NCBI RefSeq assembly: GCF_000426725.1
Contig: NZ_KE384561.1
Span: 494,445 to 558,444 of the forward strand
Direction: 5' to 3'
DNA length: 64,000 nucleotides
DNA from: Sporocytophaga myxococcoides DSM 11118
GTDB lineage: Bacteria > Bacteroidota > Bacteroidia > Cytophagales > Cytophagaceae
A model generated the notes under the pieces. It was not told the origin of the DNA and made no database searches. It was given only the letters and a program-made list of their open reading frames with translations. A program made the position numbers and the translations under genes. Below, piece by piece: positions 40,824-63,908 of the stretch (positions within the stretch are counted from its first letter, which is position 1; each line of letters opens with the position of its first letter).

Positions 40824-41978
40824 ATGAAGAAAGAAGCACATATTTCGGGCATTGGTACTGCCCTTCCCTACCCGGTTTCAACAGAAAGAATGCTGGAAAT
40901 TGATGAAGCAATGAGAAGATTCCATGGTCAACCAGATTCAGTTATCTCCAGAATGAAAAGTTTTGTGAAAGGTACAGGCATCCATACCCGGCATTATTCA
41001 CATCCTGTCTGGATCGAAACCAATAGATCAATTGATGATTTTGAGGAAGCAAAACGCGTAGCGCTTTCACACGATATTTATACACCTAATGATTTCATCC
41101 CACCCTATTGGCAACGTATGGAAGTTTTCAATGATACAGCAATAAAACTTGCTGTTGAAGCTGCCCGCAAAGCACTTGACAATTGGGGAGGAAAAGCTTC
41201 TGACGTTACTCATATTATTACGACCTGCACAAGCGGATGGAGCGAGCCCGGTGTTGCTGTTTCTGTTATGGAAGCCTTAGGACTTTCAGATGATTGCCAG
41301 AAGGCAGAATTAAATTTTAACGGATGCTTTTGTGGCGCCACTTGCTTAAGAATCGCAAGAGACATCATTCGAGCCGGTGATGCCAAAGCAGTATTGGTTG
41401 TTGCTGTTGAAGTTGCCTCATCACATTATGACGTGAATGCCACTGATATTTCTTCACTGGTAGCACATTCCTTATTTGCAGATGGAGCTGCTGCAATAAT
41501 CCTTTCAGATGAAGGGAAATGGAAGTACACACAAACGGGAATGTCACTTGTACCTAAAAGCCAGCATTTATTAGGATTAGTGCCTCCAACAGGGCCTGAT
41601 CATACAAGCTATCGCATGACATTAAATCGTGAAGTAGGGAAAAAATTAGGTGAGTATTTCTGCGATGGAGCAGGAAGTAAGATCCTTAATAAATTGCATC
41701 CAAATTTGGATAAGCCAACACCGGCACTAGGAATTCATCCAGGAGGACCAAATATATTAGATCATGTTGGAAGTGTATTTTATGGTTTGGGCTGGCCAAC
41801 AAATGCTCTTCAGTCTTCCTATGATACATTACAAAGCATTGGAAATTTAGGTGCAGCAGCTATGATGTTTGTATTAGCAAGAAGATTGGACACTATAGAA
41901 GAAGACGAATTGATTACTCTTGCTTTTGGCCCAGGCGTAACGGTAGAGTGGGCTAAGCTTGAAAAAGTAAGCTCATAA
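40824..41978 (+). CDS. Type III polyketide synthase (chalcone/stilbene synthase family)
   Basis: This 384-residue thiolase-fold enzyme has the catalytic triad of type III PKSs in order: Cys168 in NGCFCGA, His305 in GIHPGGPNILDHV and Asn341 in SIGNLGAAAMMFVL. The C-terminal signature FGPGVTVEWAKL matches the family's GFGPG loop. Such enzymes condense malonyl-CoA units onto an acyl-CoA starter in the cytoplasm, giving pyrones, resorcinols or phloroglucinols. The starter cannot be predicted here. KAS III is the main alternative but its motifs differ at the Asn region. No methyltransferase or oxygenase is adjacent. The gene is bracketed by copies of a repeat element on both sides. Confidence 0.85.
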   Translation: MKKEAHISGIGTALPYPVSTERMLEIDEAMRRFHGQPDSVISRMKSFVKGTGIHTRHYSHPVWIETNRSIDDFEEAKRVALSHDIYTPNDFIPPYWQRMEVFNDTAIKLAVEAARKALDNWGGKASDVTHIITTCTSGWSEPGVAVSVMEALGLSDDCQKAELNFNGCFCGATCLRIARDIIRAGDAKAVLVVAVEVASSHYDVNATDISSLVAHSLFADGAAAIILSDEGKWKYTQTGMSLVPKSQHLLGLVPPTGPDHTSYRMTLNREVGKKLGEYFCDGAGSKILNKLHPNLDKPTPALGIHPGGPNILDHVGSVFYGLGWPTNALQSSYDTLQSIGNLGAAAMMFVLARRLDTIEEDELITLAFGPGVTVEWAKLEKVSS

Positions 41979-53208: not shown

Positions 53209-56200
53209 TTATTTTATAATCTTGTGTTGAACAGCCCCTGTTCCATCATTTAATTCCAATAGGTAAATACCTGCAGGAAGTGAAGAGAAATCCATTTCAA
53301 ATGCGGCGGCCCCACTTTTTTCAGTAGATAAAACTTCTATTCCTTGCATATTTAAAAGCTTTACTGACAAAGTTTCACTTTTACCCGTATTTGGAATAAT
53401 ATGAAGAAGACTTTGAACAGGATTTGGATAAACTGCAAATTCATTTTCATCTGCATTTTTCACTGATGAAACTACGCCTGTTACTGTTCCCTGTACATCT
53501 AACGTTTTAAATTCAGCAGTAGAAGCGCTAATAACCACTTTGTCATTATAGCTTGATGCATTAGCAGTGGCAGCCAATCGAATGTAAATTCTTTTTGACG
53601 CAATATTTCCACTTACAGGTGCCAGGCTTAAACTATTTGAATAGCCTGTGGTTGCCGAAAAAGACAATTCAAATCCTGCCGGGGCAGTTATAGTCATGCT
53701 TTCTGTCAGGTTAAATCCTTTTACATTAAAGGACTGACTAGGTGAAACAGATCCATATTCAGCTTGGAATGGGCTCAAAGAAGGCTTGGATATCTTTCTG
53801 ATATTATTATATTCAGAAATATAAATATTACCATTAGACCCCACTACCAAAGCATTAGTAGCACTGAAAGTAGCTGAGGATCCCAGACCATCTGCAGTAC
53901 CGGAGGTTCCCGTTCCCGCAATAGTCGTGACGATGCGAGCAGGTGTCATTTGTCTGATTTTGTAGTCCAGACCATCTGCTATGTAAAAGTTGCCATCTTT
54001 ACCCCTTGTAATACCTGATGGGTAATAAAAACCTGCAGAAGATCCTACTCCATCTGCGCCAGAAGTGCCGCCGCCCGCAAACACACTGTATTCATTATTT
54101 GGTGTTATTTTTACTATTTGATGATAATTGTTATCAACCACATAAATATTCCCGGCATCATCAAGAGCAATTCCTTTCGGATTTTTGAAATAAAATGGAA
54201 GAGATGTAACTACGCCTTCCGGACTAATTTTTCGAATCTTGTTATTCCCTACATCGCATAGATAAATGATACCCGACACATCAATAGCCATCATTGAAGG
54301 GTTATAAAATAAAGCCTGGCTTCCAGTTCCGTCAGCATTTCCAGAGAATGATCCCCCAACGAATGTTGATACAATGCCATCCGGTGTAATTTTTCGAATT
54401 ACATTGTTGCCATATTCGGAGACATATAGGTTTCCGGCAGCATCAAAAACTAATCCTTGAGGGTTGTTAAATGTTGCAGTAGCTACTGGTCCATTCGCAG
54501 CCCCTTTAGTTCCGGTACCTGCATAGGTAGTTACTTCACCATCTGGAGTAATTTTTCTAATTCTGTGATTAGTGTAATCTGCTACAAAAAGATTGTCATT
54601 TTTGTCTAGTGCAAGACCATAAGGGGTATTAAACCTTGCATCCACTCCTTTACCATCCTGAAGACCTGATGTTGCTGTACCTGCAAGTGTAGAAACAATA
54701 GGATCAAAGTGAATAACTGATTTCATTGGTGATACATATGCCTCAACAGGAATTCTCAGAATTTCCGCTCCTAAAGATGAAACAATTATTGTATCAAATA
54801 TGGCCCCCACAGGAGCTGTAGATTTTGTTCTTATTGATAAAGTGAAATTCGCAGTTCCGTTTGTAGGAATAATACTCAAACTGTTTAAAAAAGATACATA
54901 GGAGGAAACTTCCAGATTAGCAGTACCCGTTACAACCAGATTATTGGTAAGTGCAGCAGCGATTACCGGGAAATCAACTTTAGCTGAAGGAGAACCTTGT
55001 ATTCCATATAGCCCAGGCATTTGATATGCACTTAACTTTCTGATTTTACCACTTCCTACGTCAGCTACATAAACATTTCCTTTTAGATCAGTAGTGAGCC
55101 CTTGAGGAGAACTAAAAACAGCACTGGTACCAACACCATCCACTGATCCTGAACTCGAAGCACTTCCTCCCAGTGTTACGACAACACCTGTTGGCAATAT
55201 CTTTCTAATCATATAATTATTCATATCAGAGACATAGATATTGCCTTCAGCATCTACGGTAAGCGCAGAAGGGTAATTAAACTTTGAGCTTAATGCATTT
55301 CCATCAAGATATCCTGCTGAAGTTCCTGCAATAATAGAAATTGTACCATCAGCAGTTATCTTCTTAATCTTTTGATTTGATTGATCAGCTACATAAATAT
55401 TTCCATTTAAATCAGCAGCTACTCCGGAAGGATAGTTGAAAGAAGTTGCTCCTACTGTGGAGACGATCAGGTCAGTGCTGATCTTTCTTATTTTACTGTT
55501 ATTTTTATCTGCTACAAAAATATTTCCATAGATATCAATTGCTATGCCGCTTGGATTATAAAATTGGGCTGAAGCTGCTGCTCCTTCAAGAGATCCTGAA
55601 GTGCCTGTTCCTGCAATAGTACTTACCTCTCCATCCTGAGTTACCTTTCTTATTCGGTGGTTATTTGAATCTGTGATATATAGATCCCCATTTTTGGCTA
55701 TTGCAATACCAGATGGATAACTAAATTTAGCTTCAATGCCTTTTCCATCAGCAAAACCACTTGTGCCAGCACCTGCCAGAACAGTTATGGTTCCATCTTT
55801 GGAGATTTTTTTAATTACATGGTTCGAGCCATCCGCAACAAATAAATTTCCGTCAGAATCTGCTACTACGCCAACAGGCTTTAATCCTGAAGCAATTGTA
55901 CTAACATATATTCCCTTCATAATAGTCGGAGAAGCAGTATTGGGAATTGTTTCCCCTGTAAAATTCAATATTACATCCTGGGCTCCTGATGATGTAATGG
56001 AAATGGTTCCATTGTTTGTCCCAGGTTTAGCTGTGTTAGAGATTCTTATAAAAATTTCTACTGATATAATCGAACCGTTTGTGGCTGTTAAATTTAATGA
56101 ACTGGCAAAGCCTGATGTTGATGAAAGAGATACTTCGTAACCATCTGAAGCAAGTATGTTTAAATTTCCAGTTAAAGAAGTGGCGCTTATAGCAATGGAT

Positions 56201-57312
56201 TGATTAGTTGATGGATAATTTTGAACGGATGAAAAGGCTTTAAAAGAAACTGGGGCTATTTTTCGAATACAACTATTATCCGACACATAAAGAGCACCAT
56301 CAGGACCAAATTCTACATCACTGACAGATCTGAAAGATGATTTACCACTAAGACCATCTGTATATGCAGAAGTACCATTGCCTGCAAAAGTAGATACAAT
56401 GCCATCTGGAGATATTTTCCTTACTCTATAATTGTAACAATCTGCAACATATATATTACCAGATGCGTCAAGAGTGAGACCACTTGGTCTATCAAATTTG
56501 GCAGTGGCTGCACTCCCATTTGCAAAACCTTCTTCACCTGTTCCTGCTACAGTTGTAACAACACCTTGAGGTGTCACTTTTCTAATCCTGCTGTTTAGGT
56601 AATCGGCTACATACAAGTTGCCCTGAGCATCAATATCTATTCCCATTGGCATATTAAAGCTTGCTGCAGTTCCTGTACCATCAGCAAATCCTGCCACGCC
56701 ATTGCCAGCAAAAACAGTTACAAGTCCCTGTGGTGTTATCTTTCTGATCTGGTGATTGAATTCGTCAGTAACAAATAAATTTCCATTTTTATCAAAAACA
56801 GCACTATATGGTTGGTTAAACTTTGCCGACCCTCCGACACCATCTACATTGCCATAGTCAAGGCTTCCTGCAAAAGTTGTTACATTGCCCGAGGTAGAAA
56901 TTTTTCTTATCTGGTGATTTCCATTGTCTGCAACATAAGCAATGCCGTCAGTGGAAAAAATAAGATCGGTAGGCTGGCTGAATTTGGCAACAGAAAGATT
57001 ACCGTTTGCAAAACCCTGAACTCCATTTCCTGCATAAGTACTTACCACGCCATCCGGAGTTACTTTTCTGATGATGGATCTGTTTATGTTGTCTGCAACA
57101 TAAAGGTTACCTTTTTGGTCAAAAGCCAAGCCCATGGGATCAAAAAATTGTGCAATACTTTTTGGACCATCGGTATACCCGGAAAGACCCGTTCCCGAGA
57201 ATGTTGTCACCTGATTGTCTAATGTAATCACCTGGCCTTTTACCTTTACCTGTAAAAGTAAAAGCAAGGCAAAAATTACTTTTAACTTCTGAACTGAATT
57301 AATCTTAATCAT
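53209..57312 (-). CDS. Giant NHL-repeat T9SS protein (1367 aa)
   Basis: Signal peptide about 1-26 (LKVIFALLLLLQVKVKG). Three blocks of NHL repeats follow (about 30-350, 470-770 and 870-1195), each of five or six units of the form LAFDQKGNLYVADNINRSIIRKVTPDG with a spacer such as VVTTVAGTGEEGFANGSAATAKFDRP. The blocks are separated by Ig-like domains (about 355-465 and 775-865, also 1200-1285), e.g. SGFASSLNLTATNGSI. The protein ends in a T9SS sorting domain (VYPNPVQSLLHIIP...LNMQGIEVLSTE...VQHKIIK). It is presumably a string of beta-propellers displayed on the cell surface. NHL propellers bind proteins, sugars or RNA, so the function is open. No catalytic domain is seen. Confidence 0.88.
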   Translation of the reverse strand: MIKINSVQKLKVIFALLLLLQVKVKGQVITLDNQVTTFSGTGLSGYTDGPKSIAQFFDPMGLAFDQKGNLYVADNINRSIIRKVTPDGVVSTYAGNGVQGFANGNLSVAKFSQPTDLIFSTDGIAYVADNGNHQIRKISTSGNVTTFAGSLDYGNVDGVGGSAKFNQPYSAVFDKNGNLFVTDEFNHQIRKITPQGLVTVFAGNGVAGFADGTGTAASFNMPMGIDIDAQGNLYVADYLNSRIRKVTPQGVVTTVAGTGEEGFANGSAATAKFDRPSGLTLDASGNIYVADCYNYRVRKISPDGIVSTFAGNGTSAYTDGLSGKSSFRSVSDVEFGPDGALYVSDNSCIRKIAPVSFKAFSSVQNYPSTNQSIAISATSLTGNLNILASDGYEVSLSSTSGFASSLNLTATNGSIISVEIFIRISNTAKPGTNNGTISITSSGAQDVILNFTGETIPNTASPTIMKGIYVSTIASGLKPVGVVADSDGNLFVADGSNHVIKKISKDGTITVLAGAGTSGFADGKGIEAKFSYPSGIAIAKNGDLYITDSNNHRIRKVTQDGEVSTIAGTGTSGSLEGAAASAQFYNPSGIAIDIYGNIFVADKNNSKIRKISTDLIVSTVGATSFNYPSGVAADLNGNIYVADQSNQKIKKITADGTISIIAGTSAGYLDGNALSSKFNYPSALTVDAEGNIYVSDMNNYMIRKILPTGVVVTLGGSASSSGSVDGVGTSAVFSSPQGLTTDLKGNVYVADVGSGKIRKLSAYQMPGLYGIQGSPSAKVDFPVIAAALTNNLVVTGTANLEVSSYVSFLNSLSIIPTNGTANFTLSIRTKSTAPVGAIFDTIIVSSLGAEILRIPVEAYVSPMKSVIHFDPIVSTLAGTATSGLQDGKGVDARFNTPYGLALDKNDNLFVADYTNHRIRKITPDGEVTTYAGTGTKGAANGPVATATFNNPQGLVFDAAGNLYVSEYGNNVIRKITPDGIVSTFVGGSFSGNADGTGSQALFYNPSMMAIDVSGIIYLCDVGNNKIRKISPEGVVTSLPFYFKNPKGIALDDAGNIYVVDNNYHQIVKITPNNEYSVFAGGGTSGADGVGSSAGFYYPSGITRGKDGNFYIADGLDYKIRQMTPARIVTTIAGTGTSGTADGLGSSATFSATNALVVGSNGNIYISEYNNIRKISKPSLSPFQAEYGSVSPSQSFNVKGFNLTESMTITAPAGFELSFSATTGYSNSLSLAPVSGNIASKRIYIRLAATANASSYNDKVVISASTAEFKTLDVQGTVTGVVSSVKNADENEFAVYPNPVQSLLHIIPNTGKSETLSVKLLNMQGIEVLSTEKSGAAAFEMDFSSLPAGIYLLELNDGTGAVQHKIIK

Positions 57313-57401: not shown

Positions 57402-57523
57402 AACTGCGCAATTTGGTGTAGAATATACGGGCTTTTTAGAATTGGGGTTGGTAAGTATAGAGCGTTTAAATTCTGAAAAATAATTGGAAAGGTGCAGCCG
57501 CTATAGGTTATACAATGTTATCT
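57402..57523 (-). other. attC-like site 1 (end of array)
   Basis: It begins 5 bp after the stop of the cassette E gene with AAGATAACATTG. The arm TGTATAACCTATAGCGGC pairs imperfectly with the far arm GCCCGTATATTCTACA, and an inner stem TTTTTAGAATT/AAATTCTGAAAAA is present. The far boundary (GTT at 57402-57404) is uncertain, as there is no following cassette to confirm it. Confidence 0.55.
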
Positions 57524-58024
57524 TCAGTTTCTTTGTTTCTCAAACCATTCAAGTTGATTTTTTATTCGCTTGAGAATATTCTCGTCAGAATCTCCATGAA
57601 TGTCTCTTAATCTAAAATTTTCTTTTGCAGGATCACCCTTGTCCATAAACTCCATAATGCCTAAATTGAAAAGAGCCTGCCCAAACCTTTGATCATAATG
57701 TTTAGCCAAATAGTCAGAAATTAAATTTAGTATTTCCTGATGTTCCTGTTTAGGGTTTGATTTATTCCATTCAAAATCAAATTCATCTTGATTAATTTCA
57801 AATTCTTTGAATTCATCTAAATCTAATGGTTGGCTTCCAAGTCCTCCATAATCATCAAATCTTTTATCTAAATGATATTTCAGTCGGTTCCCATTATCAT
57901 ACAATTCAATTTGTTTAACAGCATACCCGTTATCCTCCACTTCAAAATACCAAATAGATGTTCCCCATGAATCAAATTCATCACCTCTTGTTTCATTCCA
58001 TTTTCTTTTGAAGTATCTATTCAT
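57524..58024 (-). CDS. Cassette E: small acidic protein (DUF6881-like)
   Basis: The 166-residue soluble protein is rich in aromatic and acidic residues: ETRGDEFDSWGTSIWYFEV, then NGYAVKQIELYDNGNRLKY and DDYGGLGSQPLDLDEFKEF. The pattern of a strand pair with YDNGN and a later YGGL.QPLDL resembles DUF6881-type proteins, a family of unknown function; this is a tentative match. The C-terminal half is helical. The start directly follows attC-like site 2 (GTTATC 15 bp upstream) and the stop precedes site 1 by 5 bp, so gene and cassette have almost the same length. It is the last cassette of the array. Confidence 0.7.
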   Translation of the reverse strand: MNRYFKRKWNETRGDEFDSWGTSIWYFEVEDNGYAVKQIELYDNGNRLKYHLDKRFDDYGGLGSQPLDLDEFKEFEINQDEFDFEWNKSNPKQEHQEILNLISDYLAKHYDQRFGQALFNLGIMEFMDKGDPAKENFRLRDIHGDSDENILKRIKNQLEWFEKQRN

Positions 58025-58033
58025 TTTATTAAA

Positions 58034-58198
58034 GATAACGTCGATTATAAAAAAAAGTGCCAGGATTTAAAGAGCGTCCCTACCCTCTAGTAGCCCGCCA
58101 GCATGGCCATAATTTACAATTAAAATCCATGCGAGTTTTATAGATCATCAGTTAACTCTTCTTCTGAAGCCAGGCATTTTTTTTATATAATGTTGCCT
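58034..58198 (-). other. attC-like site 2
   Basis: On the minus strand the 5' end GGCAACATTATATAAAAAAA then ATGCCTGG pairs with the 3' end CCTGGCACTTTTTTTTATAA then TCGACGTTATC. The stem has mismatches, G-T pairs and unpaired bases on one strand (the TCG insertion), features typical of attC. Total span is about 160 bp. The inner part is similar to that of site 3. Confidence 0.72.
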
Positions 58199-58212
58199 GA
58201 AGCGCTAATTTA

Positions 58213-59571
58213 TTAAATCGCCGTAGGAAATTCTTTAGCTACTAGTTCATCAAGGGATTCTTGTGGCTCTTGATTCTTCATTCTATTTAAAATTGCCATT
58301 GTTTCCCTATATTCCATAGCTTCTGGTAATCTTATAAACTCAGCATCAATTCCCAATTCTTTTATTTTTGCCTCAATCTCTTCAATTGACACATTAAAGA
58401 ATTCACGTTTAGAATTAATCATATTCACTTTTCTATCAGAAAAAGCTTTATGCAATTCATTCTCTAAAGTCGGTGCTTCGTCAGAGAAAATCATAGAATG
58501 TATATCAAATTGAAATGGAACAGATGCATCTCCAAGCTCTTTTACCCTGTCAGTCGGTTCTAACCTCCTTGTCATTCCAATCTTAAATACATTCTCTCCA
58601 AATGAACCAATATTAGAAATTATATAAACATGCCCCCTTTTAGTTTGTTGAGCCATAGATAGGGCTCTCTCTTTTCGCTCATGTGCCTCCTTTAATTCAT
58701 TTTCAAGTAATTCAATTTTCATTAGTAGCTTTTGTTGCTTTTCACCCGTTAATTCTGCCACCTCTTTTCGAGCCTTTTCTAACGCCTTTTGATAATTCGC
58801 TTCATCTTTTTCAGCTTGCTTTTGAGCTTGTTCAAACTCTCTTCTTGCTCTTTCTTCATCTCTTAATTCTTCTTGAGCCAACCTTAATGTCTCTTTTTCC
58901 TTTTGTCTTTTAAGCTGATATTCATGTTCAAGGATTAACTCTTGTATTTTTAATTCTAAATATGGTCTTTGAATTGATGCTGTATAATTATCGCCTAATT
59001 TATTTATTGCTTCAAATGATTTATTAATGCGTTCTTTCATTTGGTTTACATTGTTCCATTTTACTTTCGCAATCAATGCATCACATTCTCCATTAAATGC
59101 TCTCAGCATCAATTTAAGGACCTTTTTTGTTATTGCACGTCCCTTGGCCTCACTACCCTCCACACTCCAACTTGTCCTGCAAACTGCTGCCGTTTCATTA
59201 GCTATAAGTTGCTTTTGCTTTTCAATAATATTGTTTTGTTCAGCTCTATAGTCATCCGACTTTTCGAAATCATAAACAGGTTCATATATTCCAAATTCTA
59301 CAAGGTCAAGCTTATTTTCATATACCCCTATTTCTTTACGTAAATTAGTATATATGCTTAAGGCTGTTCGATAATTAGCTTTTAAATTTTCATATTCAGT
59401 TTCAACTGTAAGAATCTCATTATTTTTAGCAGAAATTTCAGATTGCAATTTCTGCTTGATAGTTTCCGCTTCTTTTTCAACATCAATAATTGGCTTGTAT
59501 TTTTCAAGCTGTTGTTTAAGGAACCTGATTTCTTCAAACTCCTTCTTCTTTAAAAAGTCAAAAAGTCCCAT
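58213..59571 (-). CDS. Cassette D: coiled-coil DUF4041-like protein with GIY-YIG (T5orf172) domain
   Basis: The 452-residue protein starts MGLFDFLKKKEFEEIRFLKQQ. A long coiled coil occupies about 10-110, a DUF4041-like helical domain about 115-215, a second coiled coil about 220-310 (LRLAQEELRDEERARREFEQ) and a C-terminal T5orf172/GIY-YIG-type domain about 315-425 (RGHVYIISNIGSFGENVFKIGMTRR, ELHKAFSDRKVNMINSKREFF). The GIY-YIG fold is seen as VYII...FKIGMTRR. Such proteins occur in phages and defence islands; a nuclease role is inferred. The gene sits between attC-like sites 2 and 3 and fills its cassette. Confidence 0.85.
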   Translation of the reverse strand: MGLFDFLKKKEFEEIRFLKQQLEKYKPIIDVEKEAETIKQKLQSEISAKNNEILTVETEYENLKANYRTALSIYTNLRKEIGVYENKLDLVEFGIYEPVYDFEKSDDYRAEQNNIIEKQKQLIANETAAVCRTSWSVEGSEAKGRAITKKVLKLMLRAFNGECDALIAKVKWNNVNQMKERINKSFEAINKLGDNYTASIQRPYLELKIQELILEHEYQLKRQKEKETLRLAQEELRDEERARREFEQAQKQAEKDEANYQKALEKARKEVAELTGEKQQKLLMKIELLENELKEAHERKERALSMAQQTKRGHVYIISNIGSFGENVFKIGMTRRLEPTDRVKELGDASVPFQFDIHSMIFSDEAPTLENELHKAFSDRKVNMINSKREFFNVSIEEIEAKIKELGIDAEFIRLPEAMEYRETMAILNRMKNQEPQESLDELVAKEFPTAI

Positions 59572-59604
59572 AATATTATGTTAAGGTTGATAATGTTATC
59601 GCAT

Positions 59605-59775
59605 TTCAGGCAACGATTCGTGTATGAAATGTGCCGGGTTTAAAAGTACTGAACTATCCACTAGCACTGAAACCCCGCACACCTTTTAAAAATAAACAAA
59701 ATAGCGGGATTTAGAAGCATTGCTCCTTCCTAAACATTATTACCCCGGTATATTTTATACACAATGTTAGCGATA
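59605..59775 (-). other. attC-like site 3
   Basis: The 5' arm (minus strand) GCTAACATTGTGTATAAAAT then ATACCGGGG pairs with the 3' arm CCCGGCACATTTCATACACG then AATCGTTGCC. Pairing is interrupted by G-T pairs and an extra base on one side. The span is about 165 bp. GTT at 59612-59614 opens cassette D. Confidence 0.75.
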
Positions 59776-59782
59776 GTTATTT

Positions 59783-60661
59783 TTATAGATTTCCAAATGT
59801 CCCGTTCAGAAAAATTGGTCCTTCTGAGATCGCTGTATACTTAGAGAATGCCTTTGTTTCAGTGGTTCGATACCCGCGCACTACTTCATTCAATCTATTG
59901 ATTAAAAATTGGAAATTATTGTCTCTCTTTGGAGTTATATAAATTGAATCAGCATCATCTCCATACCAATACCTTATCTGCCCTTTAGCTCTATTCATAT
60001 AAAGTAACAATCCGTGATTTAATATTGAAATTAAATTTATCAGGTTTTGTTTTGGGTAAATTTTACTTAATTCAATAAACTTATTAATAAGAGTTTGTGG
60101 ATGAACTCCAAGTTCTCCGCAAAATGCAAAGTAGAAAATTTGGTCGGTTCTTTTTTTATCCTGATTAAACTCCTCTTCTTTGGTGCACTCAAATGCTCCC
60201 GTATTACCGTAATGTCTAAATGAAACAGTTTCATCAGGAACAAGAACACCTTTAGAAGGAATCGCAAATCTTCTTAAAGATTTAACCGATTCAGTTTTTC
60301 TAAATATATCTTCCAACTCCGAGTTATTCAATGTACTTTTTATTTCTCCAACCGCAATAACTCCTTCACAAGGATAATAAGTTGTTTCAGGGTTATCATT
60401 TATTGAAAATACTGGACAAAGGTGTTTTTCGAACAAAATTATATCCATTTGCTTACTAGTTCCACCAAAACTATCAATAACACATCCACTTCCAACTCCA
60501 ACCATTGGCGGTAACAAAGTCTCCAGCTTCTGGCGAGTAATTTTCTCTCTAGCGCTTCCAACAAGTCCTGGTGTAGTCGCTTGTCCAGCAAATGAAAAGT
60601 TATTAATTAGCTCGTAAGCTAAATGTTTTAAAAATGCATTTATATCAAACTTCTGTTGCAT
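59783..60661 (-). CDS. Cassette C: PD-(D/E)XK-like nuclease-fold protein (DUF6602-like)
   Basis: The start at 60661 (MQQKFDINAFLKH) is chosen because the 36 upstream codons lie inside attC-like site 4. The 292-residue protein shows the restriction-nuclease core: an N-terminal helix, then GGTSKQMDIILFEKH with the catalytic-type Asp, and GVIAVGEIKS with E-x-K on the next strand. That matches the PD-(D/E)XK fold of DUF6602-type proteins. The C-terminal half (from about 190) is of unknown fold. A nucleic-acid cutting role, possibly in defence, is an inference. The stop lies 15 bp before the AAC of site 3, so gene and cassette coincide. Confidence 0.75.
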   Translation of the reverse strand: MQQKFDINAFLKHLAYELINNFSFAGQATTPGLVGSAREKITRQKLETLLPPMVGVGSGCVIDSFGGTSKQMDIILFEKHLCPVFSINDNPETTYYPCEGVIAVGEIKSTLNNSELEDIFRKTESVKSLRRFAIPSKGVLVPDETVSFRHYGNTGAFECTKEEEFNQDKKRTDQIFYFAFCGELGVHPQTLINKFIELSKIYPKQNLINLISILNHGLLLYMNRAKGQIRYWYGDDADSIYITPKRDNNFQFLINRLNEVVRGYRTTETKAFSKYTAISEGPIFLNGTFGNL

Positions 60662-60679
60662 ACTCCATTTATAATTATC

Positions 60680-60812
60680 ACTAACGTTGATATATGACTC
60701 GGTGGGGAATTTTAAAGCAGTAAAGTATCCCACGAGACACTGTGAAAATAATGAGAAAAAGCCTGACAAACAATGCCCGCCCCCACTGAGGTATATATAC
60801 TGTTAGCGGCTG
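60680..60812 (-). other. attC-like site 4
   Basis: Minus strand: GCCGCTAACAGTATATATAC then CTCAGTGGGG pairs with CCCCACCGAGTCATATATCA then ACGTTAGTG over about 20 positions with mismatches and G-T pairs. The site is about 130 bp long, like the classical long attC sites of Vibrio. It overlaps the upstream extension of the cassette C reading frame. Confidence 0.75.
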
Positions 60813-60844
60813 CCCTACTGTATGTCCGAAGATGTTCCATTGGA

Positions 60845-62392
60845 TCATTCATTGAGTCCGATTGGCGTTAAAACAGTTGTCACGAAATGTTGAATAGAAC
60901 CATTGTCCTCATGATATTGATATGGAATCTTGTCAAATTCATTCCAGGCGTCTTGTAATGCTGCTAAGTATTCATTTGTTCTTTCTGGAACTCCAAAATC
61001 AACACCTTTAGGATTTAAAAATAATTTCTCTAACCATTGTCGTGCAGTTGTAGCCGCAATGTTGTCGGGATAGTGAGAGAACTTAAAGTAAGTTGAAAGT
61101 ATTAAATCTAGTTGCCTTCGTCTAAACCAAACAGAAATTTTTGAATTGTCAGCTTGGCAAATTGAATGAACACACCATCCTAAACACCTGATAGTATCAA
61201 TTACACGATTGTCTGTTTCCTGCTCCTTTGCCAAATCAAGCCAGTTGGTCATTATTGAGAATTGCTCGTAAATCATTTTATGAGCAAACGAAGGGTATTC
61301 AGAATTTCCTTCGTAGTCATTAGGAGAAGGAATTATTTCTATCAGAAGGTCGGTGAAATGCCTGAAATAAAAAAGCCACATATGCCACTCACTGTCTCGG
61401 TAAATAGTTTCTCTTACCATGTAGTTAAAATAAACAATAGCAATGTAAATTTTTTGATTCCAAAGTTCTGATTCTAAATCATGGTCATATTTCTTTGTCA
61501 AAAATTCTTTTTGTACTGAATCGTGCTTTAAAGATTTAACAGCTTCCTCGCCAACTGGATACCAAACATAATTTTCTGAGGCTACTTTTGTATGAGCAAA
61601 AAGTGAGAATAGGATTGGAATGTCATAATTCTTGTTCATTTCCAATACTGATGAGTTTGTCCCGTTCATAATTTTTAATTCCTGAATCAGTAATTGGTTT
61701 TTGTTTTCAAACAAGCATTCAATATAAAGCTTGACAAGGTCTTCGTTAGAAGATTCTTTTGTTTCCATTCCACTAAAAGCTGTTGCAAAAAGTTCTGGGT
61801 ATTTATTTGCTGTCTTACGAACAAAATTTTCGTTCTGAATTATGTGTCCATAAACCCATGAGGCAAATAATATTCTCTTCGGTTCTACCAATTTATCGTA
61901 TGCTTTGTCTTTGTCGGTTCGTCTTCTTAAGATGATGTCAATGCTTTCCTTTTGTGGAAGGTGCGATATTCCTTGAAGATATTTTCTTATGTCCTTAATG
62001 TGATACTTGGTTATGTAGTTTACCAAAAGGTCAATCTCATTTTCCTTTAAATAAGTTTCGTAAAGTGCAATCATGCTTTTTAATCGGCTTGCAGAAAAGT
62101 AGCCGAATGACACTTTGACAATTGGAAAAAATATTATCGTCAAGGCTATCATGTAAGCCCATGTTGAACTTGGCAAACCATTGTCAACTGTGAAAATTGA
62201 AAGACACGGAAACCAGTTAGCCATTAACCAGTCAAAACACATCAGGTAATGAATAACAAAAAGGGAAGCGATGAAAACTCCAATTTCAAATTTTGAAAAG
62301 AAAAGTAAAATAAACCGTCTTTCCTTACTTGGGATAATTGCCCAAACTGCAAGTGCTAATCCTAAAATTGTAAGAAAGTCCGATGGTTGCAT
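60845..62392 (-). CDS. Cassette B: membrane protein with large helical cytoplasmic region
   Basis: The 515-residue protein has three or four hydrophobic helices in its first 100 residues (FLTILGLALAVWAIIPSK; IGVFIASLFVIHYLMCFDWLM; WAYMIALTIIFFPIVKVSFGYF). A long, mainly helical soluble part without signal motifs follows. Charged segments such as IKDIRKYLQGISHLPQKESI and a tail of KLFLNPKGVDFGVPERTNEY are seen. No catalytic motif or named family is recognised. Its position as the sole gene of a cassette, between sites 4 and 5, suggests independent acquisition. A membrane effector or sensor is possible but not shown. Confidence 0.72.
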   Translation of the reverse strand: MQPSDFLTILGLALAVWAIIPSKERRFILLFFSKFEIGVFIASLFVIHYLMCFDWLMANWFPCLSIFTVDNGLPSSTWAYMIALTIIFFPIVKVSFGYFSASRLKSMIALYETYLKENEIDLLVNYITKYHIKDIRKYLQGISHLPQKESIDIILRRRTDKDKAYDKLVEPKRILFASWVYGHIIQNENFVRKTANKYPELFATAFSGMETKESSNEDLVKLYIECLFENKNQLLIQELKIMNGTNSSVLEMNKNYDIPILFSLFAHTKVASENYVWYPVGEEAVKSLKHDSVQKEFLTKKYDHDLESELWNQKIYIAIVYFNYMVRETIYRDSEWHMWLFYFRHFTDLLIEIIPSPNDYEGNSEYPSFAHKMIYEQFSIMTNWLDLAKEQETDNRVIDTIRCLGWCVHSICQADNSKISVWFRRRQLDLILSTYFKFSHYPDNIAATTARQWLEKLFLNPKGVDFGVPERTNEYLAALQDAWNEFDKIPYQYHEDNGSIQHFVTTVLTPIGLNE

Positions 62393-62460
62393 TTGTCTAT
62401 ATGATTGTTTTTCTGTTTATTCAAAATTCGTCAGTTCAAACTTAGCACTCTTGTTATAGG

Positions 62461-62550
62461 GTTGCCGCTAACCCCAGTATATGCGCTATTTAAATTTACC
62501 TTTAAAATTTAATAATCAAATTTAAATAGCGCATATACGTTGTTATAAGC
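62461..62550 (-). other. attC-like site 5 (perfect stem)
   Basis: Between GCTTATAACAAC and GGGGTTAGCGGC (minus strand) lies a perfect 21-bp inverted repeat (62477-62497 with 62518-62538; core TATGCGCTATTTAAATT) around a 20-nt loop. The site is about 85 bp, shorter and more symmetrical than the others. GTT at 62470-62472 opens cassette B. Confidence 0.72.
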
Positions 62551-62578
62551 TGGCCGCGATCACACGCCCCTTTGAATT

Positions 62579-63094
62579 TCAAATATTTAGATATGACTTT
62601 GCTATCTCTTCTGCTTTTCGTCTTGCACTTGTTCCACCAATAAATCTTGAACTATAGTTATTCGAGCTGTCAATGGTCACTTCATCGTTCTCCATATCGT
62701 ATACCGCCCACCACCAATAATTTTCGTCCATCAATTCAGCTCTCAACATAAGTCCGGCCCATTGTGCAGTGCAGTCATCTGACAAGTCTCCCGTCCATTC
62801 AATTGATCCCGTGACCAATCTTTGTCTTTCCTTTATTTTAATAATTCTCAGTTCGCTTTTTGTTAAATCAATTCCTTTCAGTTTATCAAAGTCCGCGAAA
62901 GAAATAAGTAGCCCAAAATGTCCCGCCTCCTTTTTAATTGACACACCACCAATTCTTAGAATAACACCTTCATAACCATCAGTAACTAAAATCTTGTCGC
63001 CTGCAAGAATTGCTTCCTTGTCACTAGTAATTCCAGACAGTACGTGTCCTCTATCTGTGATTTTAAAAATGTCTTTGATTTTAAATGTCGACAT
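62579..63094 (-). CDS. Cassette A: EF-Tu domain 2-like fold protein, unknown function
   Basis: The start at 63094 (MSTFKIKDIFKITDRG) is preferred because it has an AGGAAAG ribosome-binding sequence; the longer frame from a GTG at 63172 begins inside the cassette boundary sequence. The 171-residue protein opens with a beta-barrel pattern like translation factor domain 2: FKIKDIFKITDRGHVLSG, then DKILVTDGYEGVILRIGGVS. A linker follows, then a second domain with tryptophans (ENYWWWAVYDMENDE) and a helical end (SARRKAEEIAKSYL). It has no catalytic motifs. It is the only gene of cassette A and the first of the array. Confidence 0.68.
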   Translation of the reverse strand: MSTFKIKDIFKITDRGHVLSGITSDKEAILAGDKILVTDGYEGVILRIGGVSIKKEAGHFGLLISFADFDKLKGIDLTKSELRIIKIKERQRLVTGSIEWTGDLSDDCTAQWAGLMLRAELMDENYWWWAVYDMENDEVTIDSSNNYSSRFIGGTSARRKAEEIAKSYLNI

Positions 63095-63111
63095 AGATAG
63101 TCTAATCTTTC

Positions 63112-63172
63112 CTAGCGGCTTGCTTATAACATTTGAATATCCGCCATATGGCGTATATTTTTCTTTTATCAC
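63112..63172 (-). other. Leading boundary of cassette array
   Basis: GTTATAAGCAAGCCGC on the minus strand (GTT at 63128-63130) matches the end of cassette A (GCGGCCAGCTTATAAC). Just upstream is a hairpin ATATACGCCATATGGCGGAT, which could be half of an attC or an attI-like site. No second arm with AAC was found. Confidence 0.5.
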
Positions 63173-63684
63173 TAATCTATCTAATTTTTAAATTTCACAA
63201 CGTCCTCAAATAATCATCAGATGTAGATGACCAAATTGCCAACTTGAAATTTCCAGAGCAGAACCGGATAAATTGATCCAACAATGGTCTTTTATAAATG
63301 TGATAATTAAATACCATAAAATCCGCTTACCTGAAAAGTTCTGTCTTAGAGGCATGGATCATAGTTTCATCATGATTCTGTATTAAAAATATCCTCTTGT
63401 CTGATTGCATTTCCCCTAATCTTCAAAATATCCCCGTCAACAAATATATAAAATGTGTTACAACTTACGATATTTCCCGAGCTAAGTTACCTGAAACATA
63501 AAGAATTAAGTATTTTTCACAATCCAATCTCAATAAATACCACTCAATAAAGGAAGTCACGCAAAATCCTTAAAAACTGCCATCCGCCGCTATCTTAAAG
63601 GCTTTCCCCTCCCTCCCCACTGCTTAAGCCCATCCCCATAATACTTCAATAAAATCCTCTCAGTCATAAGCCTCCCCCATTTTT

Positions 63685-63908
63685 GCTTTAGCCTCGAGTT
63701 TTCAGGCTATAGCCTGAGGCCTCCAGGCTTTAGCCTCACCGTTCCAGGCTTACTCCTGGAGTCTCCAGAAGCCTCCTGATAATTCCGGGAGCGCTCCTGA
63801 CGCTTCCGGGGATACTCCTGGCTCTTTCAGTGGGCTGCTGAAAGGTCCAGGAGTAAGCAAAAAGACAGGAGGCTAAAGCCTGAGAATCCCAGGCTATAGC
63901 CTCAGACC
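63685..63908. repeat. Cluster of short palindromic repeats
   Basis: About ten copies of short related motifs occur in 220 bp: CAGGCTATAGCCTGA, CAGGCTTTAGCCTC, GGAGGCTAAAGCCTGA, CAGGCTTACTCCTGGA, GTCCAGGAGTAAGC, TCCGGGAGCGCTCCTG and variants. Core AGGCTATAGCCT is itself a palindrome. Copies occur in both orientations and without regular spacing. The GC content is clearly higher than in surrounding sequence. Confidence 0.85.

Follow-up and report, generated by a model that had tools for sequence, protein, structure and literature searches.

A cassette array at the end of a contig

The window analysed here is a stretch of 64,000 nucleotides (nt) of Sporocytophaga myxococcoides DSM 11118 (Bacteroidota, Cytophagaceae), positions 494,445 to 558,444 of contig NZ_KE384561.1, which ends where the contig ends. 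About 870 bp from that end lies the element discussed below, an array of five tandem units on the minus strand (63129-57517), each of which begins at G^TT, ends with AAC and carries about one gene. From the first T after the G to the last C of AAC, unit E runs from 63129 to 62542, unit D from 62471 to 60802, unit C from 60684 to 59766, unit B from 59613 to 58192 and unit A from 58038 to 57517. All five are co-directional, and the four spacers between AAC and the next TT (S1-S4) measure 70, 117, 152 and 153 nt.

The start of each unit is complementary to its own end. At positions 3-14, 46 of 60 positions match when the five units are summed (10/12 each in E, D and C, 9/12 in B and 7/12 in A). 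The mean over all 120 possible start/end pairings is 23.6 matches, and 46 is reached by the own pairing alone, which beats the 119 re-pairings; random GTT/AAC pairs in the window reach 10/12 at a rate of 1.2e-4. Array neighbours, that is, the end of one unit and the start of the next, match at 5-7 of 14 positions. The arms share a layout of 8 paired bp, an interruption at positions 9-10 and further pairs, the interruption being due to an AA present at all five starts and facing CA or CT at the ends. The five-unit array is thereby confirmed as real and not what chance would yield. A preliminary description of this DNA had proposed five units with cassette-specific complementary ends at G^TT and AAC and no integrase gene in the window, and all of this holds. 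It had also listed palindromic sites between the genes, to which two corrections apply: the segment at 63130-63197 is instead an attI-like element (see below), and that at 57402-57517 is a remnant.

Cassette E (62472..63129, minus strand, as are all features of the array) contains a gene at 62579-63094 whose start was placed by hand (172 aa); the longer open frame at 62579-63172 has no match in Pfam or PADLOC. It is joined to cassette D by site S1 (62472..62556), which holds a 21-bp perfect inverted repeat at 62477-62538. Cassette D (60685..62471; gene 60845-62392, 515 aa) encodes a protein with no Pfam family above the cut-off and no PADLOC match, and is followed by site S2 (60685..60816), an imperfect hairpin. 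The product of cassette C (59614..60684; gene 59783-60661, 292 aa) is a DUF6602 protein (PF20247, E 2.5e-23) resembling PD-DExK nucleases and NucC (PADLOC PD_DExK, E 4e-34; NucC, E 5.7e-16), and that of cassette B (58039..59613; gene 58213-59571, 452 aa) is PD-Lambda-1-like (PADLOC, E 2e-187) with a T5orf172 domain (E 7e-17). Cassettes B and C, two of the five, therefore look like carriers of anti-phage genes. Homologs of the cassette B protein are patchy, being found in 7 of 231 genomes of the order with its own genome counted, and none of those elsewhere was seen inside a unit.

Between C and B lies site S3 (59614..59780), with similar sites in two other genomes of the genus, G142 (81%) and G187 (73%), and in the strain's own genome (75%). 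The latter, a second S3-type site at C12:4012-4159, accompanies a single unit with ends that match at positions 3-8. Site S4 (58039..58206) separates B from cassette A (57517..58038; gene 57524-58024, 166 aa), after which the last site survives as a putative remnant (57402..57531) consisting of the AAC half followed by ATTGTATAACC. No second matching arm was seen in this remnant (57402-57517), and folding gave no long hairpin (-10.8 kcal/mol). An Rfam search matched no family, and a search of the own genome with a pattern devised for the L'/R' half gave nothing useful (4+2 matches vs 20+8 in the control).

An attI-like element bounds the array

Upstream of the first cassette, at 63130..63197 (minus strand), is an attI-like insertion site of about 68 bp that ends in ...ATATACGCCATATGGCGGATATTCAAAT|G. 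In a sister species the element is found with 94.5% identity over 73 nt and with a different cassette behind it. The array flank as a whole (window 63126-63904) is 88% identical in the sister species G103, where the identity ends at the unit boundary G^TT and gives way to another unit, whose ends were matched by eye. Collected by flank sequence alone, 15 further attI-like copies occur in three genomes of the genus, G103, G142 and G187 (loci L313-L323 and L327), and 12 of them are bounded by GTT. When 17 copies were compared (the window, the sister-species locus L054 and the 15 others), GTT stood at the boundary in 14, and mean pairwise identity was 0.71 in the 25 nt before the boundary vs 0.38 in the 25 nt after it. 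All 14 starts behind GTT-bounded copies have an A at position 10. The gene starts behind the 12 further GTT-bounded copies differ, except for one near-identical pair; the 14 are thus not all independent, because at least this pair (L316, L321) has nearly the same start. Directly upstream of the copies no recombinase was seen in the seven loci with listed frames, whose proteins were not family-searched. A genome of the window's family, G171, presents a recombinase gene, then an attI-like sequence and then a cassette, and its attI-like sequence contains a short palindrome nearly the same as that in the window's flank.

The preliminary description had expected relatives to differ by breakpoints exactly at G^TT, an expectation borne out between species both by the sister-species flank and by 14 of the 17 attI-like copies. 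The attI-like site thus has the features of an entry point at which cassettes would be inserted.

Related arrays lie downstream of a tyrosine recombinase

A pattern search of 241 genomes of the order uncovered matched-unit arrays in other families. In four such genomes a tyrosine recombinase gene lies upstream of the matched units on the same strand, with about 130-140 nt between recombinase and first detected unit in two of them, the distances in the other two being about 1.8 and 3.5 kb. Recombinases of this kind are numerous, with at least 7498 relatives at E 1e-60 among 8000 scored candidates, and a scan of named genomes, capped from 582 relatives, provided 80 recombinase loci. A strict detector (unit length up to 2500, marks at positions 9-10 required) found 95 units in 407,724 bases downstream of these 80 recombinases, or 92 without overlaps, in 37 loci, vs 4 units in 692,307 bases upstream; the other strand gave 3 and reversed controls gave 4. 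With unit lengths up to 3000, at least one unit was present in 38 of the 80 loci, and in 33 of the 47 loci with at least 2 kb of downstream sequence. A relaxed detector that left positions 9-10 free returned 85 units downstream (29 loci), 12 upstream and 16 in reversed sequence, so part of the 85 must be chance; its other-strand count has no value, being made up of the same pairs read from the opposite strand. Among the units found in this way, without the mark requirement, the first lies less than 200 nt from the recombinase match in 13 of 29 loci, the longest frame is in the sense direction in 77 of 85, and the median length is 760 nt. Less than 2 kb past the recombinase the contig breaks off in 33 of the 80 loci, vs 3 of 80 on the upstream side, and repetitive arrays would cause such breaks.

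Hosts of units include Pontibacter, Rufibacter, Flavobacterium, Winogradskyella, Polaribacter and Paenibacillus, and one unit each was found in Halanaerobacter and in a Spirochaetota genome. Behind the recombinase on the Chryseobacterium plasmid NZ_CP041688.1 come small genes, most of them co-directional, and a single matched unit was detected there; with the gene on a plasmid, the platform itself may be mobile. As to the classical integron integrase IntI, it occurs in 39 of 118 genomes of the phylum, just one of the 39 belonging to the window's class; 20 loci around true IntI contained no unit of the new kind, although those stretches hold few classical cassettes and are a limited control.

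Two fixed mismatches mark the sites

The arms of these units carry a fixed mismatch. Position 10 is an A opposite a C (A.C) in 71 of the 85 units of the relaxed detector. Positions 11-14 match in 81-85 of the 85, partly by selection, position 15 matches in 28, and pairing drops past position 14. Pairs exact at positions 3-8 and 11-14 number 74 downstream vs 6 in the reversed control; of the 74 downstream, 66 show A facing C. An A.C mismatch on one strand is a G.T on the other, and the R arms, read on the sense strand, show 79 A.C vs 4 G.T. The bias is not general to inverted repeats of the same collection, as 402 others, collected from one locus after another on the upstream side of the recombinase, have 957 A.C vs 969 G.T.

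A second mark is found in the L arm: of 47 sites, 40 could be aligned, and 32 of these, in 17 loci, have A.C at nt 15 after AAC. In the window it is present at S2, S3 and S4, in the last case in the best ungapped alignment, and absent at S1. Counted over whole L or terminal stems, A.C outnumbers G.T by 101 to 66, with 6 vs 10 in the window alone. The two marks would be at nearly the same distance from the central spacer, roughly at base pair 11-12 of each arm. No bulge has a fixed position across the 47 sites that could correspond to an extrahelical base: within the first 20 columns, 19 sites have none, 13 have bulges in L', 12 in L'' and 3 in both. By comparison, candidates for classical attC sites next to true IntI in this phylum (five places, one doubtful) have bulges of a single base on one of the arms and lack A.C at nt 15. 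The classical attC core (RYYYAAC / GTTRRRY) is scarce, GTTRRRY being found at none of the five unit starts of the window and in 7 of the 85 units of relatives. The long arms in themselves are not new, because most classical cassettes pair over 9-11 nt (PMC2727003).

DNA folding favours the form that a site takes in an excised circle over the form it takes in the array in 46 of 47 sites, and the bottom strand over the top strand in 42 of 47. These energies are weak evidence, since presence of the R marks had been a condition for selecting the sites.

The recombinase lacks the I2 insert and often carries a HARP-like domain

Five array recombinases score 188-212 bits, in two stretches, on the integron-integrase model, whose cut-off is 265. 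The insert of about 43 residues that contains the I2 region of IntI1 is absent from all 13 aligned array recombinases, and likewise from two Xer proteins. The I2 insert is described in one study as not fully conserved in an 'integron-like' subgroup of tyrosine recombinases, yet as essential for integron function (PMC8138268). The core of the array recombinases resembles XerA, XerH and the integron integrase 2a3v. A tree meant to place the family relative to IntI left IntI1 without a resolved position and its bootstrap values unsettled, and was not used.

In one protein of the order the N-terminal extension is predicted to consist of two similar beta-beta-alpha-beta-beta-alpha repeats (model from 21 rows; mean predicted local distance difference test score, 81.6; predicted template modelling score, 0.57). 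Because matches of the full model lay mainly at residues 211-479, the N-terminal domain was searched alone. A profile of 36 domains, built from 62 segments, finds as its best match in the PDB the HARP domain of SMARCAL1 (4o66, E 0.0035; next match, 0.36). Taken singly, 4 of the 36 sequences match Pfam HARP at E<=1, the best at 4.9e-7, and the other 32 fall below that level. The domain alone was modelled as five strands and two helices, which is also how HARP is described, together with junction-specific DNA binding in SMARCAL1 and T4 UvsW (PMC4666394). In Foldseek searches with the N-terminal domain, 4o66 takes second place (E 0.047) after YciH; XPB N-terminal domains also appear near the top, and all of these matches are weak. 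The HARP-like domain occurs in 60 of the 80 loci (the 36 from which the profile was built and 24 of the 44 others) and twice in 21 of the scanned proteins; none was found in Xer proteins, in IntI1 or in 20 full IntI frames (322-414 aa). Among loci with at least 2 kb of downstream sequence, an array is present in 30 of 36 with the domain vs 3 of 11 without it.

Members of the family from gut Bacteroidales and Gracilimonas (L186, L198, L212, L189, L194) have neither a HARP-like match nor a detected downstream unit, L198 having just 1.6 kb of downstream sequence. These recombinases are perhaps put to another use.

A match to the array-type recombinase (E 1e-40 or better), in some cases fragmentary or interrupted by a stop, is present in 10 of 19 genomes of the window's family; the four genomes of the window's genus have none. 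The flanks of the window and four other stretches of the genus contain no remnant of it, the one candidate being a 38-residue match in L054 (E 0.065). The strain's own genome has no IntI above the TIGR02249 cut-off and four tyrosine recombinases with PF00589, two of them Xer-like and two other. With the recombinase missing from all four genomes, the array would be either an integrase-less relic or fed in trans, and since the contig ends near the array, a piece may also be missing. The array is therefore best described, from its sequence, as an attI-like site and five cassettes whose enzyme appears to be lost, unassembled or supplied in trans.

Proposed mechanism and alternative explanations

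We propose that the window holds an integron-like gene-capture array flanked by an attI-like site, and that a HARP-domain-family recombinase no longer present in the genus likely assembled it, a reading to which we assign a probability of about 0.74. In this model, an excised cassette circle would join its own start to its own end, and one strand would fold into a hairpin with an L arm and an R arm of 15 bp. We predict the bottom strand as substrate because the two marks form G.T wobbles there, within continuous arms, instead of the A.C mismatches of the top strand. Both arms of the hairpin would be bound by the recombinase, which would then join the hairpin to attI at G^TT. Recognition of the folded DNA would be aided by the HARP-like N-terminal domain or domains, which would replace the I2 helix and the extrahelical bases, with the fixed G.T / A.C marks as the predicted label of the strand in place of the extrahelical bases that IntI uses. 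The R arm pairs poorly in the array because its other half there comes from the next cassette, and insertion of the circle would therefore be favoured over excision.

Extended beyond the window, the same evidence would define a second class of integrons, in which an I2-less HARP-domain recombinase captures bottom-strand hairpins marked by two symmetric G.T wobbles. It would be widespread in Bacteroidota and present in Bacillota and Spirochaetota, and in the window's genus its attI-like sites would be scattered and fed in trans. This broader claim is less secure than that for the array itself, and we regard it as somewhat better supported than not.

The preliminary description took the cassettes to be products of an integron integrase, and its suggestion of a CALIN-like element (an attC cluster without an integrase) would make them ordinary attC cassettes left by, or fed from, a normal IntI integron. 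The cassette logic, the G^TT boundary, the absent integrase, the arm length shared with classical cassettes and the occurrence of IntI in a third of the phylum's sampled genomes (39/118) are all compatible with this. Nevertheless, the attribution to IntI fails on the lack of a protein above the cut-off in the genome, on the 0/5 count of GTTRRRY and on the fact that the array-linked recombinase of relatives is not IntI; the near absence of IntI-positive genomes from the class, the rarity of the core in relatives, the one-arm bulges of true attC candidates with no mark at nt 15 and the failure to find new-kind units at true IntI loci, sparse in cassettes as those are, point the same way, and we consider a classical origin improbable. 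Marginally less improbable, though still unlikely, is that another unlinked enzyme, such as the chromosomal Xer pair, moves the cassettes of the genus and that the HARP recombinase acts only elsewhere. The genus lacks that recombinase while attI-like copies are scattered in three of its genomes, and the strain's own repertoire comes down to the Xer-like and other PF00589 proteins mentioned above; against this, G171 of the same family has the similar attI-like sequence downstream of a HARP recombinase, and the arms vary from unit to unit with no conserved dif-like sequence.

Imperfect inverted repeats of some other origin, such as terminators or repetitive extragenic palindromic (REP)-like elements between unrelated genes, are a far poorer explanation still. 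The sites are indeed hairpins between co-directional genes, and their mobility is a prediction from sequence. However, the complementarity reaches beyond the spacer and spans a whole gene from unit start to unit end, the conserved flank yields to other sequence at G^TT, and no Rfam family matches. The marks, moreover, are A.C on the sense strand, where an RNA hairpin would presumably favour G.U.

Neighbouring features

Adjoining the array on the minus strand, 53209-57312 encodes a 1367-aa repeat protein, which we take, by eye, to combine NHL-like repeats with a type IX secretion-like C-terminus. At the contig end, 63640-63910 is a repeated GC-rich block (GGCTTTAGCCTC / CCAGG units) with related copies elsewhere in the genus. 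The product of the plus-strand open frame at 40824-41978 is 98% identical over 384 residues to one of the sister species (L054, 3144-4295); this frame, close to the array in that species, is perhaps an insertion element.

Comparison with known systems

A literature search, in whose scope preprints and most subscription journals were not included, gave no earlier description of the system among the matches listed. Genes bounded by inverted recombination arms are also known from pdif (XerCD/dif) modules. The units share no 28-bp dif sequence and their ends are cassette-specific, although no dif search was made. Among simple tyrosine recombinases, XerC/XerD, XerA and the 'integron-like' proteins (PMC8138268) differ from the array recombinase in that the latter adds one or more N-terminal domains and is linked to cassette arrays. 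The HARP domain of SMARCAL1 and T4 UvsW is comparable in its profile match to 4o66, in the predicted five strands and two helices and in some tandem copies, and unlike it the domain discussed here is fused to a tyrosine recombinase. CALIN elements resemble the window array in having no recombinase nearby, and differ in that the window sites lack the classical core and that attI-like copies are scattered in sister genomes.

The closest parallel is the integron itself (IntI / attI / attC). Both systems have tandem, mostly one-gene cassettes, an attI-like insertion point with a G^TT boundary, self-pairing cassette ends, hairpin sites with R and L arms around a central spacer, and a tyrosine recombinase beside arrays. 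Unlike IntI, the array recombinase has no I2-helix insert and stays below the IntI cut-off, lies upstream of and co-directional with its array, and mostly carries a HARP-like domain; unlike attC, the sites have a 15-bp R arm without GTTRRRY and fixed G.T/A.C marks, with no extrahelical base evident at a fixed place. The system thus differs in its fixed wobbles, in a HARP-type recombinase devoid of I2 and in attI-like sites that are scattered, and it likely represents a second bacterial way of collecting genes.

The classic example of recombination on folded single-stranded DNA is the integron, and the innovation behind this ability is considered to be the I2 helix. A 2020 eLife paper on the I2 step mentions a lack of intermediates (PMC7790495). 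If the proposed reading is right, a widespread I2-less cassette system with a predicted junction-binding domain would be either such an intermediate or an independent solution, a question that can be tested. Arrays across a whole bacterial class could then also escape tools based on IntI and classical attC sites. For Bacteroidetes, the authors of IntegronFinder at first listed just In0 elements, and in 2022 they reported a single complete integron, that of Salinibacter ruber (PMC9024848).

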